Shown piece by piece: positions 14,028 to 33,398 of a stretch of 33,807 nt of DNA (positions within the stretch are counted from its first letter, which is position 1; the number at the start of each line of letters is the position of its first letter). The DNA is from Bacteroidota bacterium (GTDB taxonomy: Bacteria > Bacteroidota > Bacteroidia > Chitinophagales > Saprospiraceae), in the NCBI GenBank assembly GCA_024642705.1, contig JAHEAQ010000035.1:10809-44615 (forward strand), given 5' to 3'. The notes under the pieces are model-generated. The model was not told the origin of the DNA. It ran no database searches and was given only the letters and a program-made list of their open reading frames with translations. A program made the translations under genes and the position numbers.

Positions 14028-15416
14028 ATGAAAAATATAGATAGAAGAAATTTTCTTAAAAAAACTACTCTTTCTGCCGCAGCATTGGCTGTATTGCCTG
14101 GTTTTTCAAATTATAATCCAGCTGTTGCTTCGGGAGGCCAATATATGGGAGGATTCGCAGCTCCCAAATTAGACAAAGTTAGAGCAGCATTTATAGGGGT
14201 TGGAGCTAGAGGCCCTGGACATGCTAAATTTGCTGCAATGCTTGACGGAACTGAAGTTGTTGCCATTAGTGATTTATACGAAGATAATGTAAAAAAAGCT
14301 GTGGATTTATGCGTTGAAGCTGGAAAAGGTACTCGTCACAAGAATATTGCTCAATATTATGGTGGTGAGGAAAAATGGAAATTGATGTTGGATGAAGTAA
14401 AACCAGATATAGTATTCATTTGTACCAATTGGAAAAATCATGCTCCAATGGCAATTGAAGCAATGAATAAAGGAGTTCATGCATTTGTAGAAGTTCCTAT
14501 TGCTATTACCATCGACGAAATGTGGGAAATAGTTAATACGTCTGAACGGACAAAAAAACACTGTATGATGATGGAAAATGTAAATTACAGCAGGGACGAA
14601 TTAATGTATTTAAACATGTGTAGGCAAGGAGTAATTGGAGAATTATTGCATGGAGAAGCAGCATACATTCATGAACTAAGAACTCAAATGGAGGAGCAAG
14701 ATAGAGGAACAGGATCTTGGCGAACAAATCATTATGCTAATAGGAATGGCAATCTTTATCCGACACACGGTTTAGGCCCAGTTGCCCAATACATGAATAT
14801 AGGAAGAAAAGAGGATACATTTTATTCTATGGTTTCCCTTTCATCTCCTGCAAAAGGTAGGCAAGATTATGCAAAGAAGAATTATCCAGCAAATCATAAA
14901 TGGAATGAATTAAATTATAAAGGTGGGGATATCAATACATCAATTATTAAGACTATGATGGGTAGAACTATTATGGTGCAATGGGATGAAACTAGTCCGA
15001 GACCATATACAAGGCATAATCTAATTCAAGGTACAAAAGGAACACTTGCAGGATTTCCGACAAGAGTTGCTCTGGAAGGTGGTGTTGAAGGTGCGACAGA
15101 AAGTCACCACAGTTGGGCACAAGGCGATCAATTAGAAATTTTGTATCAGAAATATGACCATCCTTTATATACTCGATTAAATCAGACTGCCAAAAATAGT
15201 GGTCATGGAGGCATGGATGGAATTATGATGTACAGAATTATTGAATGCTTAAGAAAAGGATTACCACTTGATCAAAATGTATATGAAGGTTGTCTTTGGA
15301 GCGCAGTTTCTCCATTAAGTGAACTTTCAGTTGCAATGGGAGGAGTTCCTCAGGCTTTTCCAGATTTTACGAGAGGTAAGTGGGAAATCACAGAACCGTT
15401 GGGAATTATTGAATAA
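14028..15416 (+). CDS. GH109-like Gfo/Idh/MocA family protein (alpha-N-acetylgalactosaminidase-type), Tat-exported
   Basis: A 462-residue protein with a twin-arginine signal (DRRNFLKK, residues 5-12). Its NAD-binding Rossmann motif is 'AAFIGVGARGPGHAKF' (about 53-68). Features point to glycoside hydrolase family 109 rather than an ordinary oxidoreductase: 'CMMMENVNYSRDEL' (179-192), 'GNLYPTHGLGPVAQYMNIGR' (241-260), and EVP (155-157) where classical Gfo/Idh/MocA enzymes have the catalytic EKP lysine. GH109 enzymes keep NAD bound and cleave by oxidation at C3, elimination and re-addition of water; the type activity is removal of terminal alpha-GalNAc. Tyr244 and His247 fall where the family's catalytic Tyr/His are expected. 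Tat export fits delivery of folded, NAD-loaded protein to the periplasm. It leads a plus-strand operon with a DUF1080 gene 48 bp downstream. Substrate specificity is inferred, not shown. Confidence 0.85.
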   Translation: MKNIDRRNFLKKTTLSAAALAVLPGFSNYNPAVASGGQYMGGFAAPKLDKVRAAFIGVGARGPGHAKFAAMLDGTEVVAISDLYEDNVKKAVDLCVEAGKGTRHKNIAQYYGGEEKWKLMLDEVKPDIVFICTNWKNHAPMAIEAMNKGVHAFVEVPIAITIDEMWEIVNTSERTKKHCMMMENVNYSRDELMYLNMCRQGVIGELLHGEAAYIHELRTQMEEQDRGTGSWRTNHYANRNGNLYPTHGLGPVAQYMNIGRKEDTFYSMVSLSSPAKGRQDYAKKNYPANHKWNELNYKGGDINTSIIKTMMGRTIMVQWDETSPRPYTRHNLIQGTKGTLAGFPTRVALEGGVEGATESHHSWAQGDQLEILYQKYDHPLYTRLNQTAKNSGHGGMDGIMMYRIIECLRKGLPLDQNVYEGCLWSAVSPLSELSVAMGGVPQAFPDFTRGKWEITEPLGIIE

Positions 15417-15464
15417 TTATTAAGACTAACTCCTAATGCAAAAATTAAGTTTAAAAATAACTAA

Positions 15465-16142
15465 ATGAAAAAGAACCTTTTGCTAAATATGATCTATCTG
15501 ATTTTAATGTTTTTTGGCATAGTGAAGTTCAGTATTGCTCAAACAACAGATGAATTAAATTTTGTCTCTTTGTATAATGGAGAAAATTTGGATGGTTGGG
15601 TTGGAAATAAGGTCGCTTATAAATCAGAGGATGGAGCTATAGTGGTTGACCCATCAGGTGGTGGAAGTGGAGGGAATTTATATACTGAAAAGGAATATAG
15701 CAATTTTATATTGCGTTTTGAATTTCAATTAAGTCCTGGAAGTAATAATGGATTAGGCATACATGCACCTCTCGAAGGGGATGCCGCTTATGCTGGAAAA
15801 GAACTGCAAATTTTGGATAATTCAGCTTCAAAGTATGCAGATTTGCAGCCATATCAATATCATGGTTCTGTTTACGGAATTATTCCAGCCAAACGGGGTT
15901 TCTTAAAACCTGTTGGAGAATGGAATGAACAAGAAGTAATTGTGAATGGGCCAAAAATAAAAGTTATATTGAATGGTGCCACAATAGTAGACGGTGACTT
16001 TTTAGAAGCAAGTAAGAATGGAACAATGGATGGTAAAGATCATCCTGGCCTAAAAAGAACAACAGGACATATTGGTTTTTTAGGACATGGGGATCCATTG
16101 AAATTTCGAAATATTAGAATAAAAGATTTAGATGGCAATTAA
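15465..16142 (+). CDS. DUF1080 (3-keto-disaccharide hydrolase family) secreted protein
   Basis: A 225-residue protein with a Sec signal peptide (probable cleavage after 'SIA', before QTTDE) and one DUF1080 jelly-roll domain over about 33-223. Family hallmarks are 'FVSLYNGENLDGWVG' at the start, 'NNGLGIHAPLEGDAAYAGKE' with 'LQILDN' in the middle, and 'GHIGFLGHGDPLKFRNIRIK' at the end. DUF1080 proteins are now described as 3-keto-glycoside/disaccharide hydrolases or lyases. That suits its place between two Gfo/Idh/MocA genes, one of which could supply the 3-keto substrate. It is periplasmic or cell-surface. It differs from the second DUF1080 protein in the window (18574), so the two may act on different glycosides. 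Confidence 0.87.
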   Translation: MKKNLLLNMIYLILMFFGIVKFSIAQTTDELNFVSLYNGENLDGWVGNKVAYKSEDGAIVVDPSGGGSGGNLYTEKEYSNFILRFEFQLSPGSNNGLGIHAPLEGDAAYAGKELQILDNSASKYADLQPYQYHGSVYGIIPAKRGFLKPVGEWNEQEVIVNGPKIKVILNGATIVDGDFLEASKNGTMDGKDHPGLKRTTGHIGFLGHGDPLKFRNIRIKDLDGN

Positions 16143-16222
16143 TGTTTGAAAAGGATAGCCTTAAATTGAAGTCGAGTCCCAACGAAAAATAATAAATACT
16201 AAGAAGACAAAAATAAATTAAA

Positions 16223-17569
16223 ATGAAAAAAAGAGAATTTCTAAAAAATGCTGCTTTATTGACAACAGGTGCTGCTTTGCTACCTTCTTGCGGTGTGATG
16301 AAAGGAGCAAGCAGTTCTGGTAGATTGAGAACTGCTCATATTGGAGTTGGAGGGATGGGTGCATCAGATCTTCAATCTATTTCATCCCATAGTTTAGTTG
16401 ATGTTGTCGCACTTTGTGATATAGATTCAAAAAATTTGGCTTCTGCAAAAAAGAAGCACCCAAATGCCAAAATATTCTCTGACTATCGTGTCATGTTTAA
16501 AGAAATGAAAGATGGAATTGATGCTGTGATTGTATCTACTCCAGATCATACTCATGCTCCAGCGTCAATGTTAGCAATGGAAAATGGAAAACCCGTATAT
16601 TGTCAAAAACCTTTAACACATCATGTTTCTGAGGCAAGAGCGATGAGTAAATTGTCAAAAGAGAAAAATTTAGTCACACAAATGGGAATTCAAGTTCATT
16701 CATTTTATGATTATAAATTGGCAACCATATTAATTCAATCTGGAATTATTGGCAAAGTAAGCAGTGTTCGAGCATGGTCTCCTAAGAATTGGGGATATGA
16801 CGGGCCGAAACCGACTGGAAGTGATCCAATTCCTGATACTGTAGATTGGAATCTTTGGTTGGGAACTGCCCCGCAAATACCATATAAATCAGGTGTTTAC
16901 CACCCAGCAAATTGGCGGAAATTAGTGGATTATGGATGTGGAACACTTGGAGATATGGGAGTACACATTTTTGATACACCTTATAATGCTTTAGCTTTGG
17001 ATGTACCGAAAACAATAACTAATAATTGTAGACAGCCCAATGGTTTTGGATACCCAGAAAATAATAAAGTTACTTATGAGTTTCCTGGTACAAAATATAC
17101 GACAGATAATTTTAAGTGGGTATGGTATGATGGTGTGGGCGCACCTGAAATGCATCCAGACTTAGAATTGCCAAATGGTGACAAACTGCCAGAACAAGGA
17201 GCTATGTTTATGGGTGAAAAAGGTAAATTATTATTACCACATTTCATGGAATTACCTAAGCACATTATAGATGGAAAATATGTGGATTTGGATCTTTCAG
17301 TAGTTAAAGAGTCAGATAAATTAGGACCTCCCACATCAGATTATGGAACTGAAAGTAATAAACATTATCATCAATTTGTCGATGCTTGTCTCGGAAAAGA
17401 TAATACTACAGCACCATTTTCTTATGCATCTAGACTAACTGAAACTATTTTGTTAGGAGTTATTGCTGGTAGATTTCCGAATCAAACTTTACACTGGAAT
17501 AATGCTACTGCTAAATTTGCTGAAGATGAGGCAAATAAGTTTTTAGAAGGCAATTATAGAAGTTTTTAG
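16223..17569 (+). CDS. Gfo/Idh/MocA family oxidoreductase, exported lipoprotein-like
   Basis: A 448-residue NAD(P)-dependent oxidoreductase. The N-terminus MKKREFLKNA is a Tat-like signal with KR in place of RR, followed by 'LLPSC' (Cys23), a possible lipidation site. The Rossmann motif is 'AHIGVGGMGASD' (38-49). The catalytic-lysine motif reads QKP (Lys129) in place of EKP, so the lysine is kept, unlike the GH109-like gene upstream. 'GCGTLGDMGVHIFDTPYNAL' is the typical C-terminal-domain signature of secreted Gfo/Idh/MocA proteins in Bacteroidota and Planctomycetota. The likely reaction is oxidation of a sugar hydroxyl, commonly C3, with bound NAD. It lies 80 bp after the DUF1080 gene and is followed by a strong AT-rich hairpin at 17599-17651, so it probably ends this transcription unit. 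Substrate unknown. Confidence 0.87.
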   Translation: MKKREFLKNAALLTTGAALLPSCGVMKGASSSGRLRTAHIGVGGMGASDLQSISSHSLVDVVALCDIDSKNLASAKKKHPNAKIFSDYRVMFKEMKDGIDAVIVSTPDHTHAPASMLAMENGKPVYCQKPLTHHVSEARAMSKLSKEKNLVTQMGIQVHSFYDYKLATILIQSGIIGKVSSVRAWSPKNWGYDGPKPTGSDPIPDTVDWNLWLGTAPQIPYKSGVYHPANWRKLVDYGCGTLGDMGVHIFDTPYNALALDVPKTITNNCRQPNGFGYPENNKVTYEFPGTKYTTDNFKWVWYDGVGAPEMHPDLELPNGDKLPEQGAMFMGEKGKLLLPHFMELPKHIIDGKYVDLDLSVVKESDKLGPPTSDYGTESNKHYHQFVDACLGKDNTTAPFSYASRLTETILLGVIAGRFPNQTLHWNNATAKFAEDEANKFLEGNYRSF

Positions 17570-17598
17570 TTTTATACTATTTTGCTTTTGAATGCAAT

Positions 17599-17651
17599 AA
17601 AAAATCCAAAAAAATGAATCTTAATATTTGGTTTATTTTTTTGGATTTTTT
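17599..17651 (+). terminator. AT-rich intrinsic terminator-like hairpin
   Basis: A perfect 17-bp inverted repeat (left arm 17599-17615, right arm 17635-17651) with a 19-base loop. The arms are mostly A-runs and T-runs around TCC/GGA, so the right arm supplies the U-tract on the plus strand. It lies 30 bp after the stop at 17569 and 64 bp before the next start, and separates the GH109 unit from the isomerase unit. Its near symmetry means it might also act on the minus strand. Confidence 0.6.
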
Positions 17652-17714
17652 CATAAAGTGAGGTGACAAAAATTAATAAAGTAAACCTTATATTTTTACA
17701 TAATTTTAATACTT

Positions 17715-18554
17715 ATGACAAATCGGAGAAGTTTTTTAAAAACAGCTGGAATAGGAATGACTATCCCTTCAGTTTTGAGTCTAGGTAGAAATTCATTAGA
17801 GTCAAATTTTATTAATAAAAACGATATTTCATTAAACTTAGGGGTTGCTTCTTATTCTTTTCGGAATTTTACTTTGGAACAAACTCTTGAAATGACGGAA
17901 CGTGCTGGTCTAGATAGGATAACATTCAAAAGTATGCATTTAGGGTTAAATTCTTCAAAGCAAGAAATTGAACATGCTTTAATGCTTTGTAAATCTAAAG
18001 GGATAACTTTATATGGTGCTGGTGTGATAACAATGAAAACAAAAGAGGATGTGGATCAAGCATTTGATTATGCAAAAAACGCTAAATTGGAAATGATCAT
18101 TGGAGTTCCATACCCTGATGTGTTAGAATATACTGAACAACAAGTAAAACAATATAATATTAAATTGGCTATCCATAATCATGGGCCTGGCGATGATTTG
18201 TATACAAGTGGCCCAAAAGCATACGATATTATAAAGAAAATGGATAAAAGAATGGGTCTTTGTCTAGATATTGGCCATGTTAAAAGAATTAATAGAGATC
18301 CCGTTCAAGATTTTAAATATTGTTTTGATCGAATTTTTGATGTTCATTTGAAAGATGTAACAGCCCCGACAGCTGATGGGACCAATTGCATTATTGGAAA
18401 AGGGGTAATAGATATGCCTCATTTCTTGAAATCAATTATAAAATTAAAATATAAGGGAACTTGTGCTTTTGAGTATGAAGCAGAGGAAAATGATCCACTT
18501 CCAGGTTTAATGGCTTGTGTTGGATATGTTAGAGGAGTATTAGCAACACTGTAA
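17715..18554 (+). CDS. Tat-exported sugar phosphate isomerase/epimerase (TIM barrel)
   Basis: A 279-residue xylose-isomerase-like TIM-barrel protein with a clear twin-arginine signal (NRRSFLKTAG, residues 3-12). The barrel begins at 'NLGVASYSFRNFTLEQTLE'. Candidate metal-binding positions are in 'LAIHNHGPGD' (His154), 'LCLDIGHV' (Asp185), 'FDVHLKDVT' (His211) and 'AFEYEAEE' (Glu253 or Glu255). Export of a member of this family implies a substrate in the periplasm. Related TIM-barrel proteins act as epimerases, dehydratases or, in the DgpB/C type, C-glycoside-cleaving enzymes on 3-keto sugars, so the generic name may mislead. A second DUF1080 gene follows 19 bp downstream, so the two are probably co-transcribed. 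Reaction unknown. Confidence 0.87.
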   Translation: MTNRRSFLKTAGIGMTIPSVLSLGRNSLESNFINKNDISLNLGVASYSFRNFTLEQTLEMTERAGLDRITFKSMHLGLNSSKQEIEHALMLCKSKGITLYGAGVITMKTKEDVDQAFDYAKNAKLEMIIGVPYPDVLEYTEQQVKQYNIKLAIHNHGPGDDLYTSGPKAYDIIKKMDKRMGLCLDIGHVKRINRDPVQDFKYCFDRIFDVHLKDVTAPTADGTNCIIGKGVIDMPHFLKSIIKLKYKGTCAFEYEAEENDPLPGLMACVGYVRGVLATL

Positions 18555-18573
18555 ATTTAAAAAAAACAATATT

Positions 18574-19215
18574 ATGAAATTTATTTTCAAAACGAGTTTT
18601 AGAATTTTTTCAATTGGCTTATGTTGGTTCGTATTCATTGGATTTGTTTTTCAACCTAATCTTACAGCTCAAAAAACAATTTCATTGTTTAATGGAAAAG
18701 ATTTGAGCGGATGGAGCATTCAGAATAATGGGCAATTTTCAGTTGAAAATGGACTTTTAAAAATAAATAAAGGCACAGGTTGGTTGCGTTCAGATAAAGA
18801 TTATGGAGATTATATATTGATTTTAGAATTTAGATTTTTAGAAAAAAGTGCAAACAGTGGAATTTTTGTTAGAACAATGCCAACAAGTAAGAATGATGAA
18901 AATGGATGGCCAGATAATGGTTACCAAATTCAGAACATGGATACCCTTGATGGTAGAGCACTGGGACAAATGATTCCTTATGGTGCGCCACCGTTTGAAA
19001 GTGTTTTTGATAAAGAAGCATTGAATAGCGCTTATTTACCTTTTGGGAAATGGCAAATTTTTGAAATTAAAGTCCAGGGAGAAGATTTATGGGTAAAACT
19101 TAATGGAACTTTAATTACTGCCGCAACAAATATTAAAAATTTAAAAGGTCGTATTGGACTCCAAGGAGAACACGGAATGCTAGAGTTTCGCAAAATTGAA
19201 CTTATAAAATTGTGA
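18574..19215 (+). CDS. DUF1080 (3-keto-disaccharide hydrolase family) secreted protein, second copy
   Basis: A 213-residue protein with a Sec signal peptide (hydrophobic to about residue 30, probable cleavage before 'QKTISLF'). It holds a single DUF1080 domain: 'ISLFNGKDLSGWSI', 'LILEFRFLEKSANSGIFVRT', 'GYQIQNMDT', 'WQIFEIKVQGEDLWVKLNG' and 'GRIGLQGEHGMLEFRKIELIKL'. This is the more canonical DUF1080 form ('NSGIFVR', 'GxIGLQxHG'), distinct from the copy at 15465. It lies 19 bp after the Tat-exported isomerase, forming a likely enzyme pair acting on 3-keto glycosides in the periplasm (inference). A PPK2 gene starts 58 bp downstream without a clear terminator between. Confidence 0.87.
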   Translation: MKFIFKTSFRIFSIGLCWFVFIGFVFQPNLTAQKTISLFNGKDLSGWSIQNNGQFSVENGLLKINKGTGWLRSDKDYGDYILILEFRFLEKSANSGIFVRTMPTSKNDENGWPDNGYQIQNMDTLDGRALGQMIPYGAPPFESVFDKEALNSAYLPFGKWQIFEIKVQGEDLWVKLNGTLITAATNIKNLKGRIGLQGEHGMLEFRKIELIKL

Positions 19216-19273
19216 AGAAAAATATACTAAAAGTCGATCGATTTGAACTAATGACATTAAAAAAGGGAATGAA

Positions 19274-20122
19274 ATGGGATTTAATTCAGCACAATTATTA
19301 AGTGCAAAAACAAGAAAAGATTTAATAGCAATTGCCAATAAAGAAAAAATAAACATTGATAAAACATTATCTGACTTAAAATATGAATTGGAAATTAGCA
19401 AATTGCAAAGTGAACTGGTCAATTTGCAAAAATGGATTACAAACAATAAAATGCGTGTAGTCATCATTTTTGAAGGTCGAGATGCTGCTGGAAAGGGAGG
19501 AACCATTAAAAGATTTTATGAACATTTGAACCCGCGTTCTTCCAAAATTACTGCTTTAACAAAGCCTACCGAAGTTGAAGCAGGTCAATGGTATTTTAGA
19601 AGGTACATTAAGGCACTTCCGGATCCAGGGGAAATTGTATTTTTTGATAGAAGCTGGTACAATCGGGCTGTAGTGGAGCCCGTGATGGGTTTCTGTACAG
19701 AAGAACAGTATGATAAATTTATGGTGCAAGTCCCCGATTTTGAACATTTGCTTTATGAGGATAATGTAAAAATTATCAAGTTCTGGTTTTCTATTTCTAA
19801 AAATGAACAGAAAAGCAGATTTGATAGCAGGATTCAAAATCCACTCAAGCAATGGAAGTTTAGCAAAGTAGATGTGAAAGGACAAGAATTGTGGAACAGC
19901 TACACGCATTACAAAGAATTAATGTTCAATAAAACGCATTCTAATTTTAGTCCATGGATTATAGTGAAAACTGATGATAAAAAAGAAGCTAGACTTGAAT
20001 CAATGAGGTATGTTTTATCTCAATTTAATTATGAAAGAAAAGGAGAGGCAAAAATTCAACTTTTACCGGATCCAAATATAGTAATGAGTTATCACAGAAG
20101 TTCAGCTCAATTAATATTTTAA
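19274..20122 (+). CDS. ppk2: Polyphosphate kinase 2 (PPK2), copy 1
   Basis: A 282-residue cytoplasmic PPK2 of the class I type. It transfers phosphate between polyphosphate and nucleotides, typically making GTP or ATP from the diphosphate. The Walker A motif is GRDAAGKGG (68-76, Lys74) and the Walker B region is 'FFDRSWYNRAVVEPVMGFCT' with Asp125. The lid region has 'PTEVEAGQWYFRRYIKALPDPGE', and length is normal for the family. The start ATG is preceded by AAAAAGGGA, a good ribosome-binding site. It is followed after 11 bp by a second PPK2 gene. Its place between sugar-oxidation genes is unusual; there is no visible link beyond energy or phosphate supply. All expected catalytic motifs are present. 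Confidence 0.93.
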   Translation: MGFNSAQLLSAKTRKDLIAIANKEKINIDKTLSDLKYELEISKLQSELVNLQKWITNNKMRVVIIFEGRDAAGKGGTIKRFYEHLNPRSSKITALTKPTEVEAGQWYFRRYIKALPDPGEIVFFDRSWYNRAVVEPVMGFCTEEQYDKFMVQVPDFEHLLYEDNVKIIKFWFSISKNEQKSRFDSRIQNPLKQWKFSKVDVKGQELWNSYTHYKELMFNKTHSNFSPWIIVKTDDKKEARLESMRYVLSQFNYERKGEAKIQLLPDPNIVMSYHRSSAQLIF

Positions 20123-20133
20123 ATTAAATAGAA

Positions 20134-20907
20134 ATGAAGAAAAAAGAGTTGTCAGAGGAAGATTTGAGCTTAATTAATTCTAAAATTGGTCTTGAAGTGT
20201 TATTCAGGAACAAAAAAATTAATATTAAGGAAACTCTGGAAGAAATAAAATATGAAATTGAACTCAAATCATTACAAGTTGAATTGATTAATTTGCATAA
20301 TTGGGTAATAGACAATAATAAGAAAGTAGTAATTCTTTTTGAAGGCAGGGATGCTGCGGGTAAGGGTGGAGCTATAAGACGAACTACAGAATTTATCAAT
20401 CCACGGCAAATAAAAATTGTTGCATTAGATATACCTACTGATGATGAAAAACACCAATGGTTTTTTCAGAGATACATTCAACATTTGCCTAAGCCTGGAG
20501 AAATTGTTTTTTATAATAGAAGCTGGTACAACAGAGCTGTAGTCGAGCCTGTAAATGGATTTTGTACTGCGAAAGATTATCAAATCTTTATGAATCAAGT
20601 GAATGATTTTGAGAAAATGTTGGTTGAATCTGATACCTATCTTATTAAGTTTTATTTTTCTATAACTAAAAAAGAACAAGCTAAAAGATTCTCTCAAATC
20701 AAAAAGACTCCTCTGAAAAGGTGGCGAATTACAGAAGTTGATGAGAGGGCTCAAGAACTATGGGATCAGTACACATTTTATAAAGAAGAAATGTTCCGTT
20801 TAACAAATACAACCATTGCTCCATGGGTGGTTATTGATGCAAATATAAAGATGAAAGCTAGGACTCAAGCCATTGCTCATATCTTAAAAACCATTCCTTA
20901 CAAATAA
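20134..20907 (+). CDS. Polyphosphate kinase 2 (PPK2) paralogue with Asp-to-Asn change in Walker B
   Basis: A 257-residue paralogue of the preceding PPK2. Walker A (GRDAAGKGG, 71-79) is intact, but Walker B reads 'FYNRSWYNRAVVEPVNGFC', so Asn128 stands where copy 1 has Asp125. The codon is AAT, one base from GAT. That Asp helps bind Mg2+/phosphate in the family, so activity may be lost, altered or dependent on pairing with copy 1. The lid 'QWFFQRYIQHLPKPGE' and the rest of the fold are kept, which argues against a decaying gene. The 11-bp gap from copy 1 implies co-transcription. It could be a regulatory subunit of a mixed oligomer or a PPK2 with different nucleotide preference. Asn at this site may occur in other PPK2 subfamilies. 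Confidence 0.88.
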   Translation: MKKKELSEEDLSLINSKIGLEVLFRNKKINIKETLEEIKYEIELKSLQVELINLHNWVIDNNKKVVILFEGRDAAGKGGAIRRTTEFINPRQIKIVALDIPTDDEKHQWFFQRYIQHLPKPGEIVFYNRSWYNRAVVEPVNGFCTAKDYQIFMNQVNDFEKMLVESDTYLIKFYFSITKKEQAKRFSQIKKTPLKRWRITEVDERAQELWDQYTFYKEEMFRLTNTTIAPWVVIDANIKMKARTQAIAHILKTIPYK

Positions 20908-21162
20908 TAATATTAAGATTTCTAATTGATTTTTTCCGTTTTAGATTCATTTGGTTATCCCAGAATTGTTATTTAAATAATCTTATTAGGAAATGTTTTG
21001 ATTGATATCCGATATTGATTTTTAAATCCTTATCGTCATTTATTTTCTTTTATAAATAATTTTATGCTGTAATTTTAATAATTGACTTAAGTCATCTAAG
21101 TCAGACCATATTAATTTGCAGATTAATCTTTATATTTCAGTTGAATCAACAAAATATAACCT
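20908..21162. other. Intergenic region with palindromic operator candidate
   Basis: 255 bp without a gene between the PPK2 pair and the cytochrome lipoprotein gene. No clear intrinsic terminator was seen after 20907. The notable content is the perfect palindrome at 21083-21094 with an extra half-site at 21097-21103. A promoter for the gene at 21163 is expected here, but I found no exact TAnnTTTG; the closest is TATATTTC at 21131-21138. Confidence 0.5.
21083..21103. promoter_or_regulatory. Palindrome TGACTTAAGTCA plus direct half-site
   Basis: A perfect 12-bp palindrome (21083-21094), then two bases and TAAGTCA (21097-21103), giving AAGTCA twice at a 9-bp spacing. It lies 60-80 bp upstream of the start at 21163, a usual place for a dimeric regulator. 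No regulator gene is in the window. This is a sequence observation with an inferred role. Confidence 0.4.
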
Positions 21163-24192: not shown

Positions 24193-24262
24193 TTAATAAT
24201 TTGAAATAAAATTAGATTTTAACCTTCTATGCTCTAGGACCAAAATATTGCAAAATTTCTGA

Positions 24263-24280
24263 TTTTTAGATTGCTAAAAA
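24263..24280 (+). terminator. Small AT-rich hairpin between the two large cytochrome genes
   Basis: TTTTTAG, loop ATTG, CTAAAAA: a perfect 7-bp stem ending 22 bp before the start at 24303. There is no T-tract after it on the plus strand. It could be a weak terminator, a leader stem affecting translation of the 1304-residue gene, or chance in AT-rich DNA. Confidence 0.25.
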
Positions 24281-24302
24281 CCTTATTATTAATTTAACTC
24301 AA

Positions 24303-27300: not shown

Positions 27301-28217
27301 GAAATTCTGAATCTGCATTGAAAATGATGGAATCATTAAAAAATATTAATACAAAATCGGATGTAAAACAGAAGGCAATAATAAATCTGGCAGCACAGCA
27401 AAGAAAAGAGCTAGAAAAGTTGATTCCAGAACTAATAAAACAGCCAGAATTGCGAATAGAAGCGATTCGAGCCATTGCAGCTTACGATAATGAAGAACTT
27501 GGAAAATTGTTATTGATAAATTATTCCAACCTTAATGCAGCTGAGAAGCAAGAAGCTTTGCAAACTTTATCCTCTAGGTCTGTATACGGGTGGCAACTAG
27601 CGAAAGCAATTGAAAATAAATCGATTCCAAAATCAGAAATTCCTGCTTATATAGCAATGCAAATTAGAAGAGTAGTCGGCAATGGGTTTGTTGAAATATG
27701 GGGTCCGATAGATAATGTTACAAGCAATATTGAAACTCAATTAAAAAAATACCAAAGATTGTTAACAGAAGAAAGATTATACAAAGCTGATTATGAACAT
27801 GGACAGGTAGTATATCAGAAAACTTGTTCTCCTTGTCATAAATTGTTTGGAAATGGTGGACAACTAGGTCCTGAACTAACAGGATCTAATCGAACAAATA
27901 TTTCGTATTTACTTAGCAATATTTTGAATCCAAATGGTGAAATTCAAGAAGATTACAAAATGGTGATAGTCTCGACAAATGACGGCAGAATTTATAGTGG
28001 AAATATCATAGCAGAAAATAGTCAAAATATAACATTGAGAACGGTTGGACAAGATGCAATTTCGATCAACAAGTCTAAAATTCAAGATAGAGAGGTGTCA
28101 GATAAATCAATGATGCCTGAAGGCCTTTTGGAAACATTATCAGATAAAGAAATTGTAGATTTAATAGGATTTTTGAAAAAATTGGAACCTAACAAAACCT
28201 TCAAAGAAATAAATTAA
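24303..28217 (+). CDS. DUF6807 (PmoA-like), dehydrogenase propeller, HEAT repeat and cytochrome c fusion lipoprotein
   Basis: A 1304-residue lipoprotein (acceptor Cys19 in 'IIFSCTPQ'). The DUF6807 domain, often named PmoA-like, covers about 40-345 ('SPSHHKHQTGLYWGF', 'FDYGGLFLRMPW'). Next comes the 'membrane-bound dehydrogenase' propeller known from planctomycetes and Verrucomicrobia (about 365-720; 'AAEPMITQPMAFCWDDKGRL', 'WIAENRDYESRQRG', 'HFNPYVYEDIQTIVDHRHRS'), then HEAT-like helical repeats (about 735-1140). The end is a haem-binding cytochrome c domain with CSPCH (1175-1179) and 'SMMPEGLLETLSDKEIVDLI' carrying a candidate Met ligand. All parts are in one uninterrupted frame, so this is a true fusion. 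It likely oxidises or binds a sugar-like substrate and passes electrons through the haem; neither is proven. It lies 110 bp after the other cytochrome gene, and both are probably periplasm-facing or surface lipoproteins. Confidence 0.87.
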   Translation: MNKYFLFQIAVLVLIIFSCTPQNSTNSEKKNDLVSFSISAESEQFLIFKHGFKNPIIIQNVQKDFRPYLHPLTAPNSEVSLTEFSPSHHKHQTGLYWGFTRVNGLGIEKDSLDKWFYVKDKPKNISDGIGRDYFHNPGSDFWQKVGAEVIIGEGPEVKWKTSYNMLDANGKSILLETQTWTLTEKENMYFLKLEWKGEALEDFTVNEFDYGGLFLRMPWKEGVSGEVSNAARQKNNNAEGQRAMWVDAGMEIKGLDKPGHIAIFDHPDNDGFPQSWRVDNQLGIGPVSAREGDWSIKKGEVKSFQHQVVAYSGDRNDIILNDLWGDYAGDKGMYNTASLWGIAQKEAREAKFLSPEEAVKAMTIKEGYKVNIFAAEPMITQPMAFCWDDKGRLWIAENRDYESRQRGFSNFGDSKILILEDSDHDGVVDTKKVFLENIPFPSAIAVGHGGLFLGAPPNLLFAPDSDGDDKADFENIKVLLTGWGIRDRHETINSFHWGPDGWLYGLEGFATPSKIRKPLGKGKIYKHRESFPDDLLEGEGVDINGGVWRYHPLKERFEVVAHGFSNPWGIDYDEKGQLFISACVIPHLFHIIPGGIYQRQGGSHFNPYVYEDIQTIVDHRHRSAHGGARIYQSDAFSSDQQGRIFMANIHEHAVLSDVLTKNGSGFNASHGEDFLLANNAQWIGFSLEVGPDGGIYVLDWHDADICGMEVANKETGRVFRIMPENSKAENWEGRYKDLALFSDEELVNLQSSKSNWHAQRARIILQHRASTKALSESSIFELKRLLIKEKNGSIRLRALWTLFTTNNISTLDLVNLLKDKDEYIRAWAIQFLCEDGLSDNATLDALNQLSKNEKSAVVRLYLASALQKINKDERWNIAQELSKYDKDANDPNIPFMLWFAIEPLIMENHKKALNLAKTSKIPSISNKIARRIVDGGSLNILVDAFKDESKGRKDMLEGLLAGLQNHSDLTEPSNWESVKKVIKLDRNLSQLIEDVDQQFGNSESALKMMESLKNINTKSDVKQKAIINLAAQQRKELEKLIPELIKQPELRIEAIRAIAAYDNEELGKLLLINYSNLNAAEKQEALQTLSSRSVYGWQLAKAIENKSIPKSEIPAYIAMQIRRVVGNGFVEIWGPIDNVTSNIETQLKKYQRLLTEERLYKADYEHGQVVYQKTCSPCHKLFGNGGQLGPELTGSNRTNISYLLSNILNPNGEIQEDYKMVIVSTNDGRIYSGNIIAENSQNITLRTVGQDAISINKSKIQDREVSDKSMMPEGLLETLSDKEIVDLIGFLKKLEPNKTFKEIN

Positions 28218-28351
28218 ATGTATTTTTAATAAATTGTAATTTTTAACATTTGTTGCAGATATAAATTTTTTTATAAAGTATTGATTTGAGAAGAATTACA
28301 GATAATCTGAAGTATTTATTGCATTATTAGAATTAAATTAAAATAAAACGA

Positions 28352-29197
28352 ATGAGAATTGGAATGAATATGCTCCTTTGGACAAATCATGTAACAAATG
28401 ACCATATACCATTAATAGATACAATTAAAGAAATCGGGTATGATGGAATTGAAATTCCTTTAGGTGAGGGTGATTCGAAACATTATAGCATGTTAGGCAA
28501 AGTACTAAGTGAAATGGGTATAAAAACAACAGCTGTAACATCTCTTCTTGAGAATACTAATATTGCTAGTCCTCATAAAAGTATAAGAGCAGCAGGCTTA
28601 GAAAGAATTAAATGGGCTATTGATATGGCAAGTGAAATTAAAGCTGAATTAATTTGTGGACCGATTCATTCTGCTTTTGCTTATTTTACAGGTGTGCCAC
28701 CTACGGAAAGTGAATTGAAATGGAGTGTAGAAAATCTTCAGAAAGCAGGTGAATATGCAGCAAAATCAAATGTTATCCTAGCTCCTGAAGCATTAAATAG
28801 ATTTGAGTGTTATTTGGTAAATACTATGACAGATTTGGGTAAATTATTAGATGATGTGAATCACCCTAACGTTGGTGCTATTTATGATACGCATCATGCA
28901 AACATAGAAGAAAAAAATCAAGGAAAAGCCATCCAAGAAATTTCAAGACATTTGAAGCACGTGCATATTAGTGAAAATGATAGGGGGACACCAGGAGCCG
29001 GTCAAGTAAATTGGGATGAAGTATTTTCTGAACTGGCAAGGATAAATTACCAAGGTTGGGTGACAATTGAGGCATTTAGCAGGGCAGTTCCTGAATTTTC
29101 AAATGCTATCAATGTGTGGAGAGAATTTTCGCCGCCGGATGAAATTTGTCGTAATGGTTTTGATTTTGTAACCAAAATGATAAAGAATAGGAAATGA
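28352..29197 (+). CDS. D-tagatose/D-psicose 3-epimerase-like TIM-barrel enzyme
   Basis: A 281-residue cytoplasmic protein with no signal peptide. Four putative metal ligands are Glu146 ('VILAPEALNRFE'), Asp179 ('GAIYDTHHANI'), His205 ('KHVHISENDRG') and Glu240 ('WVTIEAFS'). Their spacing (33, 26, 35) equals that of Glu152, Asp185, His211 and Glu246 in Pseudomonas cichorii D-tagatose 3-epimerase, which strongly supports this subfamily. Such enzymes epimerise ketoses at C3 with Mn2+ or Co2+. In this locus it might act on 3-keto sugars or ketoses released by the upstream exported enzymes. It begins a close series of four cytoplasmic genes (gaps 26, -4 and 33 bp). Substrate not determined. Confidence 0.88.
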   Translation: MRIGMNMLLWTNHVTNDHIPLIDTIKEIGYDGIEIPLGEGDSKHYSMLGKVLSEMGIKTTAVTSLLENTNIASPHKSIRAAGLERIKWAIDMASEIKAELICGPIHSAFAYFTGVPPTESELKWSVENLQKAGEYAAKSNVILAPEALNRFECYLVNTMTDLGKLLDDVNHPNVGAIYDTHHANIEEKNQGKAIQEISRHLKHVHISENDRGTPGAGQVNWDEVFSELARINYQGWVTIEAFSRAVPEFSNAINVWREFSPPDEICRNGFDFVTKMIKNRK

Positions 29198-29223
29198 TGA
29201 TTTATTTAATAATTTGAAATGAT

Positions 29224-30123
29224 ATGAAAAGACCAAAATTTTCTATTGGCAGTTGGGCATTTTCATTTGGACCATTCGAAAAGAACCCGTGGTCTTTTGA
29301 TAAATTTTTGGCATATGCAAGAAATGCAAAATATGACGGCATTGAAATAAATGGATTTATGCCTCATCCACATCCGGATGTTTTTAACACATTTGCAAAA
29401 TGTAAAGATCTTAAAAATAAAATTGAGGATTTTGGATTGGGTATTTCAGGTTATGCACCTGATTTTAGAGATGTTCCACCTGCAGAAGTTTCTGAGGATA
29501 AGTATTTGGAATTGATTAGAAAAACTGCTGAGTTTTGTAATCATCTAGAAATAAACACATTACGAATTGACACTATAAGTCATCCTAATAGGATGCCCGA
29601 AAATGAATACATCACTAGATTCAATAGGCTCAGTAAAACTTGGCATTCAGCTGCTGAATTATGCTTGGATGCAGGGATTAAACTTGTTTGGGAATTTGAA
29701 CCAGGCTTTTGGCTAAATAAGCCAAGTGAAATTATTGCAATTGTTGAAAATGTTGGGCACAAAAATTTTAAGGTCCTTTTTGATTCAAGTCACGCCTATA
29801 TGTGCTCAGTTATAGGTGCTAGACAATCGGGAGAAAAAGAAACTTTGGAAGGTGGAATAAATGAGTTTGCAAAATTATTAAAAGATCACATTGGACATTT
29901 TCATTTAATAGATAGCGATGGAACTTTGCATAATAATGAGACCAGCACTCATGCACCATTTGGGCAAGGTTTTATAAATTTTCATGAGTTAATTAGAACT
30001 GTCCGTCAAGAAGTGGAAAGTCTTTCATGGTGGTGTTTTGATTTTTGCTTTTGTCCGACAACAGAAGAAGATGGAAAAAAAGCAATTCCATTTGTAGAAA
30101 AAATATTAAAAGAAATAGAATGA
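29224..30123 (+). CDS. Sugar phosphate isomerase/epimerase (TIM barrel) with atypical last metal ligand
   Basis: A 299-residue cytoplasmic xylose-isomerase-like TIM-barrel protein. Probable metal ligands are Glu157 or Glu159 ('LVWEFEPGFW'), Asp187 ('VLFDSSHAY') and His227 ('GHFHLIDSDG'). The final strand reads 'SWWCFDFCFCP', putting Asp273 where the family normally has Glu. The N-terminal barrel strand is 'FSIGSWAFSFGP'. The TGA stop overlaps the ATG of the next gene (ATGA), so the two are translationally coupled. Specific reaction unknown; candidates are epimerisation, dehydration (IolE-like) or C-C/C-O lyase chemistry on keto sugars. Confidence 0.85.
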   Translation: MKRPKFSIGSWAFSFGPFEKNPWSFDKFLAYARNAKYDGIEINGFMPHPHPDVFNTFAKCKDLKNKIEDFGLGISGYAPDFRDVPPAEVSEDKYLELIRKTAEFCNHLEINTLRIDTISHPNRMPENEYITRFNRLSKTWHSAAELCLDAGIKLVWEFEPGFWLNKPSEIIAIVENVGHKNFKVLFDSSHAYMCSVIGARQSGEKETLEGGINEFAKLLKDHIGHFHLIDSDGTLHNNETSTHAPFGQGFINFHELIRTVRQEVESLSWWCFDFCFCPTTEEDGKKAIPFVEKILKEIE

Positions 30124-30917
30124 AATATGCAATTTCTAAAGGAATAAAAATATTTTATCAAATTCGAGGAGTAGGGGATCCATTAGTCTTAATAATGGGT
30201 TTTGGAGCAGATGGGAATACTTGGGAAAAACATGTGCTGGAATATGAAAAGCATTTTTGTTGCCTTTTGATCGATAATAGAGGCATTGGTTTGTCCGGAC
30301 AGCCAGAAGGACCTTATACTACATCAATGATGGCTGATGATGTGATTGCAGTGATGAATCAAGAAAACATAAAAAAGGCAAGAGTTGCAGGAATCTCAAT
30401 GGGAGGCGCAATTACTCAACAATTGGCTATTAATTATCCTGAACGCGTTCAATCTATTGCTTTGATTAGTACTTGGGCAAAATTTAATAATTTTGCTAAA
30501 TCAATGTATTCTAATTTGAAAAGCTTGAGACTTACCAGTGATCCGGGTGTTTTCATGGGATTATTGCAACTTTGGATTTTTGCTCCTCCTTATTTTGAGA
30601 CCAATTTATTGGATTTGGAAGAAGGTAAAATTGGTGCAAGAAATAATTCGAACCCTCAAACCCAAAATGGATTTGAAGGTCAATTAAATGCATGTGTACA
30701 GCACGATGTTATAGACCAATTACATAAAATCAATGTGCCTACTTTAATTACAGTTGGAGATTTGGATATCATGACTCCACCTTCTTTCTCTAAATTATTG
30801 CATCATGGAATAAAGAATTCTTTGTTTGTTAATTTTCCAAATGGAGGGCATGTTCATCATTGGGAAGACTTAGAAAGGTTTAACCAGATTACTACGGAAT
30901 TCTTTTTGAATAATTAA
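30120..30917 (+). CDS. Alpha/beta hydrolase
   Basis: A 265-residue alpha/beta-hydrolase-fold enzyme, cytoplasmic, with no signal peptide. The oxyanion-region motif is 'LVLIMGFGADGNTWE' and the nucleophile elbow is 'GISMGG' with Ser93. The acid is probably in 'TVGDLDIMTPP' and the catalytic His is His244 in 'NGGHVHHWED'. The start is set at 30120, where ATGA overlaps the stop of the preceding isomerase; an upstream ATG at 30045 would add 25 residues (many Arg/Lys) lying wholly inside that gene and unlike the fold. It may remove an ester or lactone from the sugar product, for example hydrolysing an aldonolactone or an acylated sugar. This is inference from context; the fold alone does not give the substrate. 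Confidence 0.87.
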   Translation: MKYAISKGIKIFYQIRGVGDPLVLIMGFGADGNTWEKHVLEYEKHFCCLLIDNRGIGLSGQPEGPYTTSMMADDVIAVMNQENIKKARVAGISMGGAITQQLAINYPERVQSIALISTWAKFNNFAKSMYSNLKSLRLTSDPGVFMGLLQLWIFAPPYFETNLLDLEEGKIGARNNSNPQTQNGFEGQLNACVQHDVIDQLHKINVPTLITVGDLDIMTPPSFSKLLHHGIKNSLFVNFPNGGHVHHWEDLERFNQITTEFFLNN

Positions 30918-30950
30918 GATGCATAAAGAACACTTAAGCCAAATCAAAAT

Positions 30951-31769
30951 ATGGGGAATATCAAAATAGCATGTGAAACATATACGTGGCAGATGCCAGG
31001 TGAGATTTATAAGGGTAGATTAGGTCATATTATGAAAATTATGTCAAAATCTGGTTTTTTGGGTATTGAAGCTGAAACAAGTTTTTTTGGCGATTTTTCA
31101 GATCCAATTAAAATGAAAGAAGAATTGCATAAAAATGATTTAGAACTCGTAGCATTGTGCCATGTGGAAGATTGGTTGCATAATAAAGAAACTGAAGAAG
31201 AAAAAGCAAATTCAAATAAGTGGATTAAATTTTTAGCTCACTTTCCAAAAACGATTTATCTTCCAGTACAAATGCCTGGTCAAAATCGAAATAACCTAAA
31301 AGAACGACAAAATAATCTAATAAGTTGCATCAATAACCTTTCTGAGAGAGCTGCAGATAAAGGGATAAATTGTTCATACCATCCAAATTCGCCTTCGGGC
31401 TCGGTTTTTAGAACCGAAGAAGATTACAAGATATTATTAAATGGCTTGAACAATAAATGGGTTGGATATACACCAGATGTTGGGCATATAGCAAAGGGAG
31501 GAATGGATCCACTTTCAATAATAAAAGAATATCGGAATTTGATAAATTTAGTTCACTATAAAGATATGAACGAAGATTTGAGTTGGGCACAGACTGGGGA
31601 TGGAATCATTGATTTTGTAGGTATCACTAATTTTCTTTTGGAAACCAATTATAAAGGTTGGATTATTATGGAGGATGAATGTGACAAATGCATAACATTT
31701 CCTGATGAAGTAACTTTAGAAGATGGATTTTACATAAATAGAAATATAAAGCCATTGCTCGAAAATTAA
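30951..31769 (+). CDS. Sugar phosphate isomerase/epimerase (TIM barrel), third cytoplasmic copy
   Basis: A 272-residue cytoplasmic xylose-isomerase-like TIM-barrel protein. Putative metal ligands are His144 ('CSYHPNSP'), Asp176 ('YTPDVGHIAKGG'), His202 ('LVHYKDMN') and Glu241 ('WIIMEDE'). The pattern 'PDVGHIAKGGMDP' resembles the inosose-dehydratase/IolE branch more than the tagatose-epimerase branch. It starts 33 bp after the hydrolase and precedes the ThuA-like gene by 41 bp, so it is likely part of the same transcript. With the genes at 17715, 28352 and 29224 it makes four members of this superfamily in 14 kb, each with a different active-site signature, which suggests different steps and not simple redundancy. 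Confidence 0.86.
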   Translation: MGNIKIACETYTWQMPGEIYKGRLGHIMKIMSKSGFLGIEAETSFFGDFSDPIKMKEELHKNDLELVALCHVEDWLHNKETEEEKANSNKWIKFLAHFPKTIYLPVQMPGQNRNNLKERQNNLISCINNLSERAADKGINCSYHPNSPSGSVFRTEEDYKILLNGLNNKWVGYTPDVGHIAKGGMDPLSIIKEYRNLINLVHYKDMNEDLSWAQTGDGIIDFVGITNFLLETNYKGWIIMEDECDKCITFPDEVTLEDGFYINRNIKPLLEN

Positions 31770-31810
31770 TCTATCTTTCATTATTAATATAAACAGAAAT
31801 TAATCATTTT

Positions 31811-32956
31811 ATGAAACACGCAAAATATTTATTTAACACTCTTTTTTTACTATTTCTAACGCTGAGCTGTAATTCCAATAAAGCTGAAGTTCAGGAAGAG
31901 AAATCTGAAAGTATCGAGCAATGGATTACTTATGATGGGAAAAAGGAAATGCCTAAAATCGTTTTAGTTTCTGGTGATGAAGAATACCGTTCTGAAGAAG
32001 CTTTGCCTCAAATAGCAAAAATACTTACTGAACAACATGGGTTTAATTGTACGGTATTATTTGCTCAAGATCCAGAAAAACCTGGTGTTGTAAATCCAAA
32101 TAACACGCATAATATTCCTGGTTTAGAAAAATTAGACTCTGCTGATATGATGATTATTTTTACAAGATTTAGAGCATTGCCAGATGACCAGATGAAACAT
32201 ATTGACAATTTTTTAACATTAGGAAAGCCTGTTATTGGAATGCGTACATCGACTCATGCGTTTATGTTTAGCGATAAAGATAATTTTGAATCCTCATATG
32301 CGCGTTATGGGAATAATTATGGGGAAAAAGATGCGTGGCAAGATGGATTTGGAAGATTAGTGATGGGTGAAAAGTGGATCTCGCATCACGGAAATCATGG
32401 TCATCAAAGCACTCGCGGAATCATTGCAGAAAATGCAATAGACAATGCAATACTGAATGGTATTTCAAATGGTGCATTATGGGTGCCTACAGATGTGTAT
32501 GGCGTTCGATTGCCTTTGCCTGGGGATTCTCAGCCGCTTTTATTAGGTCAAGTAATGGATAGAGAAGGCACAAGAGATGATAACGATATTTTTTATGGGA
32601 TGCGTTCTACAGATCAAAAAATACCAGCTATAATTGAGAGAAAAAATGAAAAAGGAGATTTGACACCACTTGATCAAAATAGTCCTATGATGCCAGTGGC
32701 ATGGACAAAGACTTATCAATTGCCAAATGGTAAAGCTGGTAATTGTTTTTCAACAACAATGGGAGCATCTGCAGATTTGTTAAATGAAGAAATGAGGCGA
32801 TTAATTGTAAATGCCGTTTATTGGGGCTTAAAAATGGACATTCCTGAAAAAGCAAATGTTAACTTGGTTGGAGATTACAAACCATCGCAATTTGCATTTA
32901 AAACGGATGATTATTGGTTGGAAAAGGATTTGATTATTGGTAAAACATTGAAATAG
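31811..32956 (+). CDS. ThuA-domain lipoprotein (trehalose-utilisation-like)
   Basis: A 381-residue lipoprotein (acceptor Cys20 in 'FLTLSC') with a ThuA domain, a class I glutamine-amidotransferase-like fold, over about 45-340. Family features: 'PKIVLVSGDEEYRSEEALPQ', 'LDSADMMIIFTRFRALPDDQ', 'GKPVIGMRTSTHAF', 'GEKWISHHGNHG' and 'MMPVAWTKTY'. ThuA works with the Gfo/Idh/MocA dehydrogenase ThuB on 3-keto-trehalose in rhizobia. Secreted ThuA-domain proteins are very common beside sugar-oxidising genes in Bacteroidota and Planctomycetota, with reactions undefined. It ends the plus-strand series. Its periplasmic or outer-membrane location places it with the exported oxidoreductases and not with the cytoplasmic isomerases just upstream. 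Confidence 0.87.
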   Translation: MKHAKYLFNTLFLLFLTLSCNSNKAEVQEEKSESIEQWITYDGKKEMPKIVLVSGDEEYRSEEALPQIAKILTEQHGFNCTVLFAQDPEKPGVVNPNNTHNIPGLEKLDSADMMIIFTRFRALPDDQMKHIDNFLTLGKPVIGMRTSTHAFMFSDKDNFESSYARYGNNYGEKDAWQDGFGRLVMGEKWISHHGNHGHQSTRGIIAENAIDNAILNGISNGALWVPTDVYGVRLPLPGDSQPLLLGQVMDREGTRDDNDIFYGMRSTDQKIPAIIERKNEKGDLTPLDQNSPMMPVAWTKTYQLPNGKAGNCFSTTMGASADLLNEEMRRLIVNAVYWGLKMDIPEKANVNLVGDYKPSQFAFKTDDYWLEKDLIIGKTLK

Positions 32957-32982: not shown

Positions 32983-33080
32983 GCTTCTTCGGGTAAATTT
33001 ATTAAATTCCTTAAGCTTATCAATACAAAAAACTATTGCTACTGATGCATTTGTAATTCTAAATATGATTAGAAATCATT

Positions 33081-33272: not shown

Positions 33273-33398
33273 GATCGGTCTTGTCTTAGATAATAGTGAC
33301 ACCAAAATTAGTTGCATGGTTAAAGGCTTTGAAAAAGGGAGCTCTTTTTATTCAATTTTTGCTCAATCAAAAAATGAAAAGATAACTTCTAAAACAAA

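Follow-up and report, generated by a model that had tools for sequence, protein, structure and literature searches.

The question raised by this locus is what two very large haem lipoproteins do among genes for the oxidative breakdown of glycosides, and whether all of these genes serve one pathway. The stretch analysed, hereafter the window, comprises 33,807 nucleotides of a Saprospiraceae bacterium (contig JAHEAQ010000035.1, here C26, positions 10809-44615) from a draft genome of 5.7 Mb in 194 contigs. An earlier, sequence-only reading had treated positions 14028-32956 as a single system in which the NADH that stays bound to exported, glycoside-oxidising Gfo/Idh/MocA proteins may be re-oxidised by the haem lipoproteins. 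We find instead that the region consists of two modules with a pair of polyphosphate kinase 2 (PPK2) genes between them: block A (14028-19215), which includes the Gfo/Idh/MocA protein GFO2158, and module C (21163-32956), which includes the haem lipoproteins CYT1 and CYT2. We tentatively read module C, with somewhat less than even confidence, as a respiratory-linked sugar-oxidation unit whose beta-propellers act as quinoprotein-like dehydrogenases. The haem proteins are probably dehydrogenases themselves rather than re-oxidisers of Gfo/Idh-bound NADH, because the fold of CYT1 is best matched by pyrroloquinoline quinone (PQQ) sugar dehydrogenases and because all of its fetched longer relatives are fused to DUF1080. 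The genes of module C are as follows.

21163-24192, + strand: CYT1, lipoprotein with a c-type cytochrome, DUF6797 and a beta-propeller (PF20601, 108 bits; PF13442, 34.7 bits)
24303-28217, + strand: CYT2, lipoprotein with DUF6807, a DUF7133/PVC-type propeller, HEAT repeats and a C-terminal CxxCH haem domain (PF23500, 223.7 bits; PF14100, 128 bits)
28352-29197, + strand: TIM2, ketose 3-epimerase-like TIM barrel, no signal peptide evident (173.7 bits against NF051856, the D-psicose/D-tagatose 3-epimerase model, short of its cut-off of 300)
29224-30123, + strand: TIM3, TIM barrel, no signal peptide evident (PF01261, 111.4 bits)
30120-30917, + strand: ABH, PcaD/lactonase-like alpha/beta hydrolase, no signal peptide evident (PF00561, 92.2 bits; 141.7 bits against TIGR02427, short of its cut-off of 255.85)
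30951-31769, + strand: TIM4, IolE-like TIM barrel, no signal peptide evident (91.6 bits against the IolE model TIGR04379, short of its cut-off of 290)
31811-32956, + strand: ThuA-like lipoprotein (PF06283, 30.1 bits, just short of the cut-off of 33.4)

Signal peptides here and below were judged by eye from the N-termini, as were the lipoprotein cysteines (C26 in CYT1, C19 in CYT2, C20 in the ThuA-like protein). The ATG of ABH overlaps the stop codon of TIM3.

The predicted fold of CYT1 resembles PQQ sugar dehydrogenases

Each haem lipoprotein has a single CxxCH motif, at C176-x-x-C-H180 in CYT1, with Met220 the likely distal residue, and at C1175 in CYT2. CYT2 passes both models for PVC-type haem-binding CxxCH proteins (TIGR02604, 296.4 bits; TIGR02603, 122.7 bits) and adds DUF6807 to them, whereas CYT1 has DUF6797 and falls below the TIGR02604 cut-off at 30.5 bits. 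DUF6797, DUF6807 and DUF7133 have no function assigned in Pfam. The AlphaFold model of CYT1 (pLDDT 81.9, pTM 0.77, built from 39 sequences) has a beta-propeller like that of soluble glucose dehydrogenase (sGDH), and its three best matches in the PDB are the sugar dehydrogenases 2ISM, 7CDY and 3A9G, with E values from 8.6e-10 to 1.1e-8 and TM-scores by target of 0.65-0.67 (8.6e-10 and 0.67 for 2ISM). Further sugar dehydrogenases follow at ranks 5 (3DAS) and 7 (1C9U).

Within the propeller, Phe678-His679-Glu680-Phe681, Gly684-Leu685, Gly729, Arg731, Asn734-Gly735, Asp748, Gly751, Trp753 and Pro755 are at least 95% conserved across three architectures, in an alignment of 40 of the 98 CYT1-class rows (same-locus duplicates included), 22 fused proteins and 4 short ones of about 770 aa. 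By an alignment made by eye, we take His679 and Arg731 to correspond to the His of sGDH that is catalytic and to its PQQ-contacting Arg. A precedent for sugar oxidation and a haem in one chain is CcPDH (AA12), a quinohaemoprotein pyranose dehydrogenase whose cytochrome receives electrons from a PQQ domain that oxidises sugars, both being parts of a single chain (PMC4332668). CYT1 shares its predicted propeller fold with the PQQ sugar dehydrogenases (1C9U, 2ISM, 3DAS) but differs from these and from CcPDH in having a c-type haem (b-type in CcPDH), in lacking a profile match, in the DUF6797, DUF6807 and HEAT domains found in the haem proteins, and in that PQQ is here only putative.

Fusions of haem, propeller and DUF1080 in relatives

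A hint of what such propellers do comes from their relatives in the family sample, which comprises 150 genomes including the window's own and was drawn from a larger group. Searching it with CYT1 returned about 47 matches of 29-35% identity, most with open frames of more than 1,200 aa, which we treated as other classes and did not count as CYT1. All 22 relatives fetched from among them (frames of 1,223-1,336 aa, chosen by length, with Pfam confirmation for two and with the relatives of about 770 aa that lack DUF1080 standing outside the count) have the order cytochrome c, PA14, CYT1-like propeller, DUF1080 (L234:5254-12399 and 21 more, L235 and L245-L264). Within three genes of these 22 fusions lie an MFS permease homologue in 9 cases, a Gfo gene in 5, ThuA in 3, GSDH in 3 and a TIM barrel in 2; directly upstream of the fusion in G051 and G016 is a protein joining ThuA, GSDH, PKD, cytochrome c and CBM6 (by Pfam for G051 only). 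ThuA and DUF1080 are also joined in proteins near CYT1 at L134, where both domains were found by Pfam, and at L141, where DUF1080 was found by Pfam and the ThuA part by phmmer only. A DUF7133 propeller that matches a cupredoxin but no cytochrome occurs on contig C98 of the window's own genome (L063:10194-13103) and in G048 (L064:8772-11636), at 22.7 and 24.8 bits respectively against a Pfam cut-off of 21.2, and the G048 protein adjoins DUF1080. On C17 of the own genome there is a ThuA-GSDH relative (51%), and on C150 a GSDH relative (41%); no cytochrome-propeller-DUF1080 fusion passed the threshold there, CYT1 being its sole match in the family search.

This recurrent joining of a redox domain and a propeller with DUF1080 or ThuA points to the propeller as the probable oxidant and to a keto-glycoside as the probable product. 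In this respect the sequence-only reading is supported, since natural fusions favour a chemical connection of the haem-propellers with DUF1080 and ThuA. They also give DUF6797, DUF6807 and DUF7133 a testable role, that of an electron-transport-linked sugar dehydrogenase feeding 3-keto-sugar enzymes.

Recurrence of module C

Parts of module C recur in Bacteroidota. We compared public CYT1 loci, the best 80 of at least 592 matching stretches, some of them on short contigs, counting neighbours within 8 open reading frames (ORFs) at 39% identity or more. At least one module neighbour is found at 22 of the 80 (ThuA 18, TIM2 18, ABH 8, TIM4 7, CYT2 4, TIM3 3), and these neighbours led us to drop the idea that the cytochromes have nothing to do with the other genes of the region. 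The fullest arrangements are CYT1-MFS-TIM2-TIM3-ABH-TIM4-ThuA in L157 (Allomuricauda) and L158 (Flagellimonas) and, without the MFS gene, TIM2-TIM3-ABH-TIM4-ThuA-CYT1 in L165; CYT2, CYT1, ThuA and TIM2 occur together in L127, L130, L132 and L133 (Maribacter, Flavobacteriaceae). The MFS permease belongs to one family and is present at 10 of the 22 module-bearing loci and 11 of the 80 overall. In the family its homologues neighbour ThuA in G080 and DUF1080 in G063, G094 and G125, and in the window's own genome a homologue (72%) lies on contig C35, where its nearest scanned neighbours are of unrelated families.

A density comparison, made with an identical search at every locus set (phmmer, E 1e-6), counted 41 TIM, 26 ThuA, 18 GFO, 11 DUF1080, 11 MFS, 8 ABH and 8 CYT2 genes at the 80 CYT1 loci (1444 kb), which gives 2.84 TIM and 1.80 ThuA genes per 100 kb as against 0 and 0.25 at 22 family loci of GFO2158. 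In the family, the 11 other genomes with TIM4 have TIM2 nearby in 10 and ABH nearby in 10 (five TIM2 matches of 38-39% were left out of the counts). TIM3 orthologues (62-70%) stand in the same block in three of these 11 (G050, G095, G101) and likewise in the public loci L157, L158 and L165, and a ThuA-like gene lies near TIM4 in four family genomes (G050, G086, G088, G095). ThuA orthologues of 54-55% are directly upstream of CYT1 at 3 of the 16 family CYT1 loci (G014, G045, G121); the 16 loci together (271 kb) hold 4 ThuA, 3 ABH and 3 GFO genes. In G414, too, a ThuA orthologue (51%) is directly upstream of CYT1, and this small contig also carries a piece of CYT2 (189 aa, 55%).

The two haem proteins also tend to occur in the same genomes. 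CYT2 orthologues are found in 15 and CYT1 orthologues in 18 of the 150 family genomes, CYT1 carriers being called at our own cut-off of at least 47% identity; CYT1 is partial in G019, CYT2 is cut by a contig end in G038 and split over two frames in G148, and G139, which has CYT1 and a piece of CYT2, was left out of the CYT2 tally. Among the 149 genomes other than the own one, CYT2 is present in 14, CYT1 in 17 and both in 14, against an expected 1.6 (p 4e-17, kinship uncorrected), and CYT2 is present in 8 of the 11 TIM4 carriers. The control, GFO2158, is accompanied by CYT2 in 5 of its 22 carriers (p 0.04); its overlaps with CYT1, CYT2, TIM2 and TIM4 have p values of 0.01-0.04, and that with ThuA 8e-5. 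These weaker overlaps show that some of the co-occurrence signal reflects a shared lifestyle. In the phylum sample of 394 genomes, own excluded, 14 have CYT2, 14 have CYT1 and 8 have both (kinship uncorrected), leaving six carriers of each without the other.

A candidate route outside the cytoplasm

The computations show which genes and domains are present, that parts of the cluster recur, that CYT1 and CYT2 tend to occur together, what fold CYT1 is predicted to have and that relatives carry fusions; the catalytic role of the propellers, a quinone cofactor, the course of the electrons, the substrate and the sequence of reactions go beyond this. The route that we infer would run as follows. The CYT1 and CYT2 propellers, outside the cytoplasm, would oxidise a sugar, presumably a glycoside, and the electrons would reach first the c-type haem of the respective protein and then the respiratory oxidases. 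The oxidised sugar would be processed outside by the ThuA-like protein and, in relatives, by fused or neighbouring DUF1080 proteins, and the product would enter through the MFS permease encoded on C35. In the cytoplasm TIM2 and TIM3 would work up the imported product, ABH would hydrolyse a lactone or enol, and TIM4 would act as an IolE-like dehydratase. The DUF1080 and ThuA links would favour oxidation at C3, although a lactonase-like ABH would also fit oxidation at C1 to a lactone. Such a route retains from the sequence-only reading the extracytoplasmic oxidation, the passage of electrons to cytochrome c and the cytoplasmic isomerases, all of which fit module C; it does not retain the joining of block A and module C into one pathway.

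It is also possible that module C degrades an inositol-like cyclitol or a uronate, by oxidation outside, dehydration by TIM4, ring opening or lactone cleavage by ABH and IolO-like epimerisation by TIM2, but we consider this quite unlikely. TIM4 does match the IolE model and the solved IolE 3CNY (E 1.1e-11), TIM2 matches the IolO model at 153 bits, and in L132 a gene six ORFs away from CYT1 encodes an IolM-like dehydrogenase (145.5 bits). All of these Iol matches are far below the curated cut-offs (300 for IolO), however, and the best solved matches of TIM2 are ketose 3-epimerases, with the D-tagatose 3-epimerase 7DZ5 at E 3.2e-41. No IolB, IolC or IolD family match was found among the window genes scanned, and the DUF1080 fusions point to glycosides.

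A close parallel to the glycoside route that we prefer is Caulobacter LacABC, a membrane-bound system for periplasmic C3 oxidation of glycosides, with a DUF1080 protein proposed as 3-keto-lactose hydrolase and sugar epimerases and a transporter nearby (PMC9007349). Oxidation outside at a C3-type position, DUF1080, epimerases and a transporter would be common to both, but the dehydrogenase there is LacABC, whereas module C offers a haem beta-propeller for this role, and our family scans matched none of the window genes to a flavin-dehydrogenase family. The ThuA-like domain recalls a further system. ThuA and ThuB serve trehalose utilisation in rhizobia, and the window protein has the ThuA-like domain in common with them, but it is a lipoprotein and scores below the Pfam cut-off.

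A broader proposal, that in Bacteroidota beta-propeller quinoproteins fused to a cytochrome are primary producers of 3-keto-glycosides, working outside the cytoplasm and coupled to respiration, we place on the unlikely side. If it is true, the single polypeptides of at least 22 family genomes that join propeller, haem and DUF1080 would both oxidise and cleave glycosides, with the window splitting the same chemistry among CYT1, CYT2 and separate partner proteins, and oxidative glycoside cleavage would be free of NAD and flavin and yield respiratory energy from its first step. This would make clear in what way oxidative glycosidases that are exported can be coupled to respiration, and it would put a name to a unit of sugar catabolism, so far uncharacterised, in Bacteroidota that include Maribacter, Flagellimonas and Saprospiraceae. 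The chemistry of GH109 and of DUF1080 with Gfo proteins, the PQQ propeller dehydrogenases and LacABC-type glycoside oxidation with DUF1080 are already known. The module of CYT1 and CYT2 with ThuA, TIM barrels and a hydrolase, and the cytochrome-propeller-DUF1080 fusions, are apparently undescribed: we found no paper with any two of the names DUF6797, DUF6807, DUF7133, PSCyt1, DUF1080 and Piru_Ver_Nterm, in a search that did not extend to papers with a single one of them, and none with 'PVC-type heme-binding CxxCH', in a search that left most subscription literature outside.

Are the propellers catalytic?

A number of findings weigh against reading the propellers as dehydrogenases and module C as a fixed unit. 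Non-redox beta-propellers, WD40-type folds among them, also match the CYT1 model, mostly with worse superposition. The GSDH family PF07995 is unmatched in CYT1 and CYT2, and the profile comparison of CYT1 with GSDH is not significant (hhalign probability 1.6; for CYT2 it is 29, over one short stretch). The CYT2 model (pLDDT 53.3) is too poor for fold comparison. The PQQ-contact motif is recognisable only in part, and none of 40 genomes scanned, the window's own among them, has the PQQ synthesis protein PqqE above its cut-off. PQQ synthesis by the organism itself was thus not found, and PQQ would have to come from outside or another cofactor be used; sub-threshold radical-SAM matches, present in 39 of the 40 genomes and in 14 of 14 controls, are uninformative on this point.

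The neighbourhoods add to these points. Module neighbours are lacking at 58 of the 80 public CYT1 loci, the MFS gene lies outside the window's cluster, and ABH-like genes are about as dense at CYT1 as at GFO2158 loci (0.55 against 0.51 per 100 kb, in a loose search). The 16 family CYT1 loci have 0 TIM, 0 MFS and 0 DUF1080 genes, so that the module is not intact there. CYT1 and CYT2 are close together in none of the fetched family stretches (some on short contigs). Of the 14 phylum CYT2 loci 11 were examined and none has CYT1 or TIM neighbours (0 TIM, 1 ThuA and 1 GFO gene in 207 kb), and family CYT2 loci have almost no neighbours in common with the window. The eight phylum genomes with both haem proteins come from four families, one of which supplies five of the genomes. 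The family-level counts and those for ABH are the reason why our confidence in this reading of module C is lowered.

Beta-propellers are often non-catalytic, and those of CYT1 and CYT2 might serve for binding or as a scaffold only, the haem handling peroxide or the electrons of another enzyme and the neighbours reflecting a general clustering of sugar genes. The missing GSDH profile match for CYT1, the WD40-type fold matches, the majority of CYT1 loci without module genes and the co-occurrence of GFO2158 with ThuA would all suit this explanation, which we nevertheless regard as unlikely: the best fold matches of CYT1 are sugar dehydrogenases, the His, Arg, Asn and Trp residues of the propeller are conserved across three architectures, and a cupredoxin match takes the place of the cytochrome beside the DUF7133 propeller.

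Block A and the PPK2 genes

Upstream of module C lie the genes of block A and the PPK2 pair.

14028-15416, + strand: GH109 glycosidase of the Gfo/Idh/MocA fold, Tat-type signal (PF21252, 199.5 bits), block A
15465-16142, + strand: first DUF1080 protein (3-keto-disaccharide hydrolase family), Sec-type signal (PF06439, 150.1 bits), block A
16223-17569, + strand: GFO2158, glycoside 3-dehydrogenase-like Gfo/Idh/MocA protein, N-terminal signal (NF058561, 306.1 bits), block A
17715-18554, + strand: TIM1, xylose-isomerase-like AP_endonuc_2 TIM barrel (PF01261, 69 bits), block A
18574-19215, + strand: second DUF1080 protein, Sec-type signal (PF06439, 121.2 bits), block A
19274-20122, + strand: PPK2a, polyphosphate kinase 2 (TIGR03707, 342.1 bits, cut-off 301.8)
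20134-20907, + strand: PPK2b, tandem polyphosphate kinase 2 (TIGR03707, 314.4 bits, cut-off 301.8)

Judged by its protein families, block A is a glycosidase set that would work by oxidation and elimination, of the known BT2158/DUF1080/GH109 kind and of 3-keto-glycoside type, and its enzymes would keep NAD bound within themselves. The protein that the sequence-only reading had called GH109-like is a true GH109 by its C-terminal domain and by its strong match to the solved member 6T2B (GH109 protein 2, 545.6 bits); it has a Tat signal (TAT_signal_seq, 20.8 bits, cut-off 16.7) and of the GGHGG loop, which a reference title names, it shows SGHGG. The GH109 mechanism is a transient oxidation inside a single enzyme (PMC10628242). 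Both DUF1080 proteins pass PF06439 by a wide margin (cut-off 26.8), the first having the solved relatives 4JQT and 8TDA. GFO2158 resembles 8TDF and 8TDH (E ~1e-48) and falls short of the cut-off of 750 bits of NF058561, the BT2158-type glycoside 3-dehydrogenase model, and the BT2159-type model NF058563 (cut-off 650) is not reached by either Gfo protein of the window (18.4 and 50.4 bits). TIM1 begins MTNRRSFLK, an N-terminus of twin-arginine type that by eye makes it probably exported. BT2156-BT2159 form a 3-keto-glycoside pathway of Bacteroides; block A has in common with it a BT2158-family relative, DUF1080 proteins and a TIM barrel that is probably exported, and differs in its GH109 protein and in its scores on the BT2158 and BT2159 models.

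Block A has a recurrent context of its own. GFO2158 orthologues of at least 64% are present in 23 of the 150 family genomes, own included (a broken second copy in G078, 60% and with stops, was left out), and DUF1080 is directly upstream in 11 of the 22 other loci. A GH109 orthologue (73%) is directly downstream of GFO2158 in G017, and an orthologue of the window's first DUF1080 (72%) is two genes upstream in G058. Across the 22 loci (396 kb) the search described above found 14 DUF1080, 2 ABH, 1 ThuA and 1 CYT2-like gene, and no TIM, MFS or CYT1 gene. At two of the 80 public CYT1 loci (L157 and L182), DUF1080 and Gfo genes similar to those of the window do stand beside CYT1, so that this arrangement is found in other genomes too.

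We accordingly rejected the one-system interpretation, on the distinct contexts of GFO2158 with DUF1080 and of the cytochromes and on the PPK2 genes that intervene, and found no support for re-oxidation of NADH by the cytochromes. That all genes of 14028-32956 form one pathway, with Gfo/Idh proteins oxidising glycosides and haem lipoproteins re-oxidising their NADH, seems to us very unlikely. The genes do lie on one strand; L182 packs CYT1, ThuA, two DUF1080 genes and a GFO2158 orthologue (73%) into about 10 kb; at L157 a HEAT-DUF1080 gene (its DUF1080 68% identical to the window's first) and a Gfo gene lie divergent from CYT1; and DUF1080 is found at 10 and GFO at 12 of the 80 public CYT1 loci. 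Against this stand the separate context of GFO2158 orthologues, their weak co-occurrence with CYT2, the self-contained mechanism of GH109 and, in family scans, the lack of any matched NAD-binding domain in CYT1 and CYT2, whose own propeller, in CYT1, resembles sugar dehydrogenases.

The gene list of the sequence-only reading was itself correct, in that the two Gfo/Idh/MocA proteins, two DUF1080 proteins, four AP_endonuc_2 TIM barrels, the ThuA-like protein and the two haem lipoproteins are all present on the + strand, but it overlooked ABH and the PPK2 pair. The latter (19274-20907) sits between the two sugar modules, and we see no reason for its placement; no PPK2 match was found in the GFO2158, CYT1 or CYT2 locus sets compared (phmmer, E 1e-6).

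Other features of the window

The Bacteroidota consensus promoter pattern, TTTG-N17-23-TANNTTTG, has 3 matches against 3.6 expected by chance, and a sigma-70 scan gave 103 against 90.6. On the minus strand, 3502-13702 encodes four consecutive FG-GAP repeat proteins, three with an ASPIC/UnbV domain, which adjoin a TonB-type receptor and DUF4249 proteins. A dispersed intergenic DNA repeat at about 33062-33393, with a degenerate second copy seen by eye at about 33427-33570, has at least 44 further partial matches (69-94% identity) across the draft genome, 40 of 112 candidates having been scored and the window itself and the contig-end overlap being excluded from the 44. The 3' edge of the window is the end of the contig, and at position 33807 it shares a 121-base exact overlap with the end of contig C42 (C42:42091-42211), which is probably the downstream continuation.

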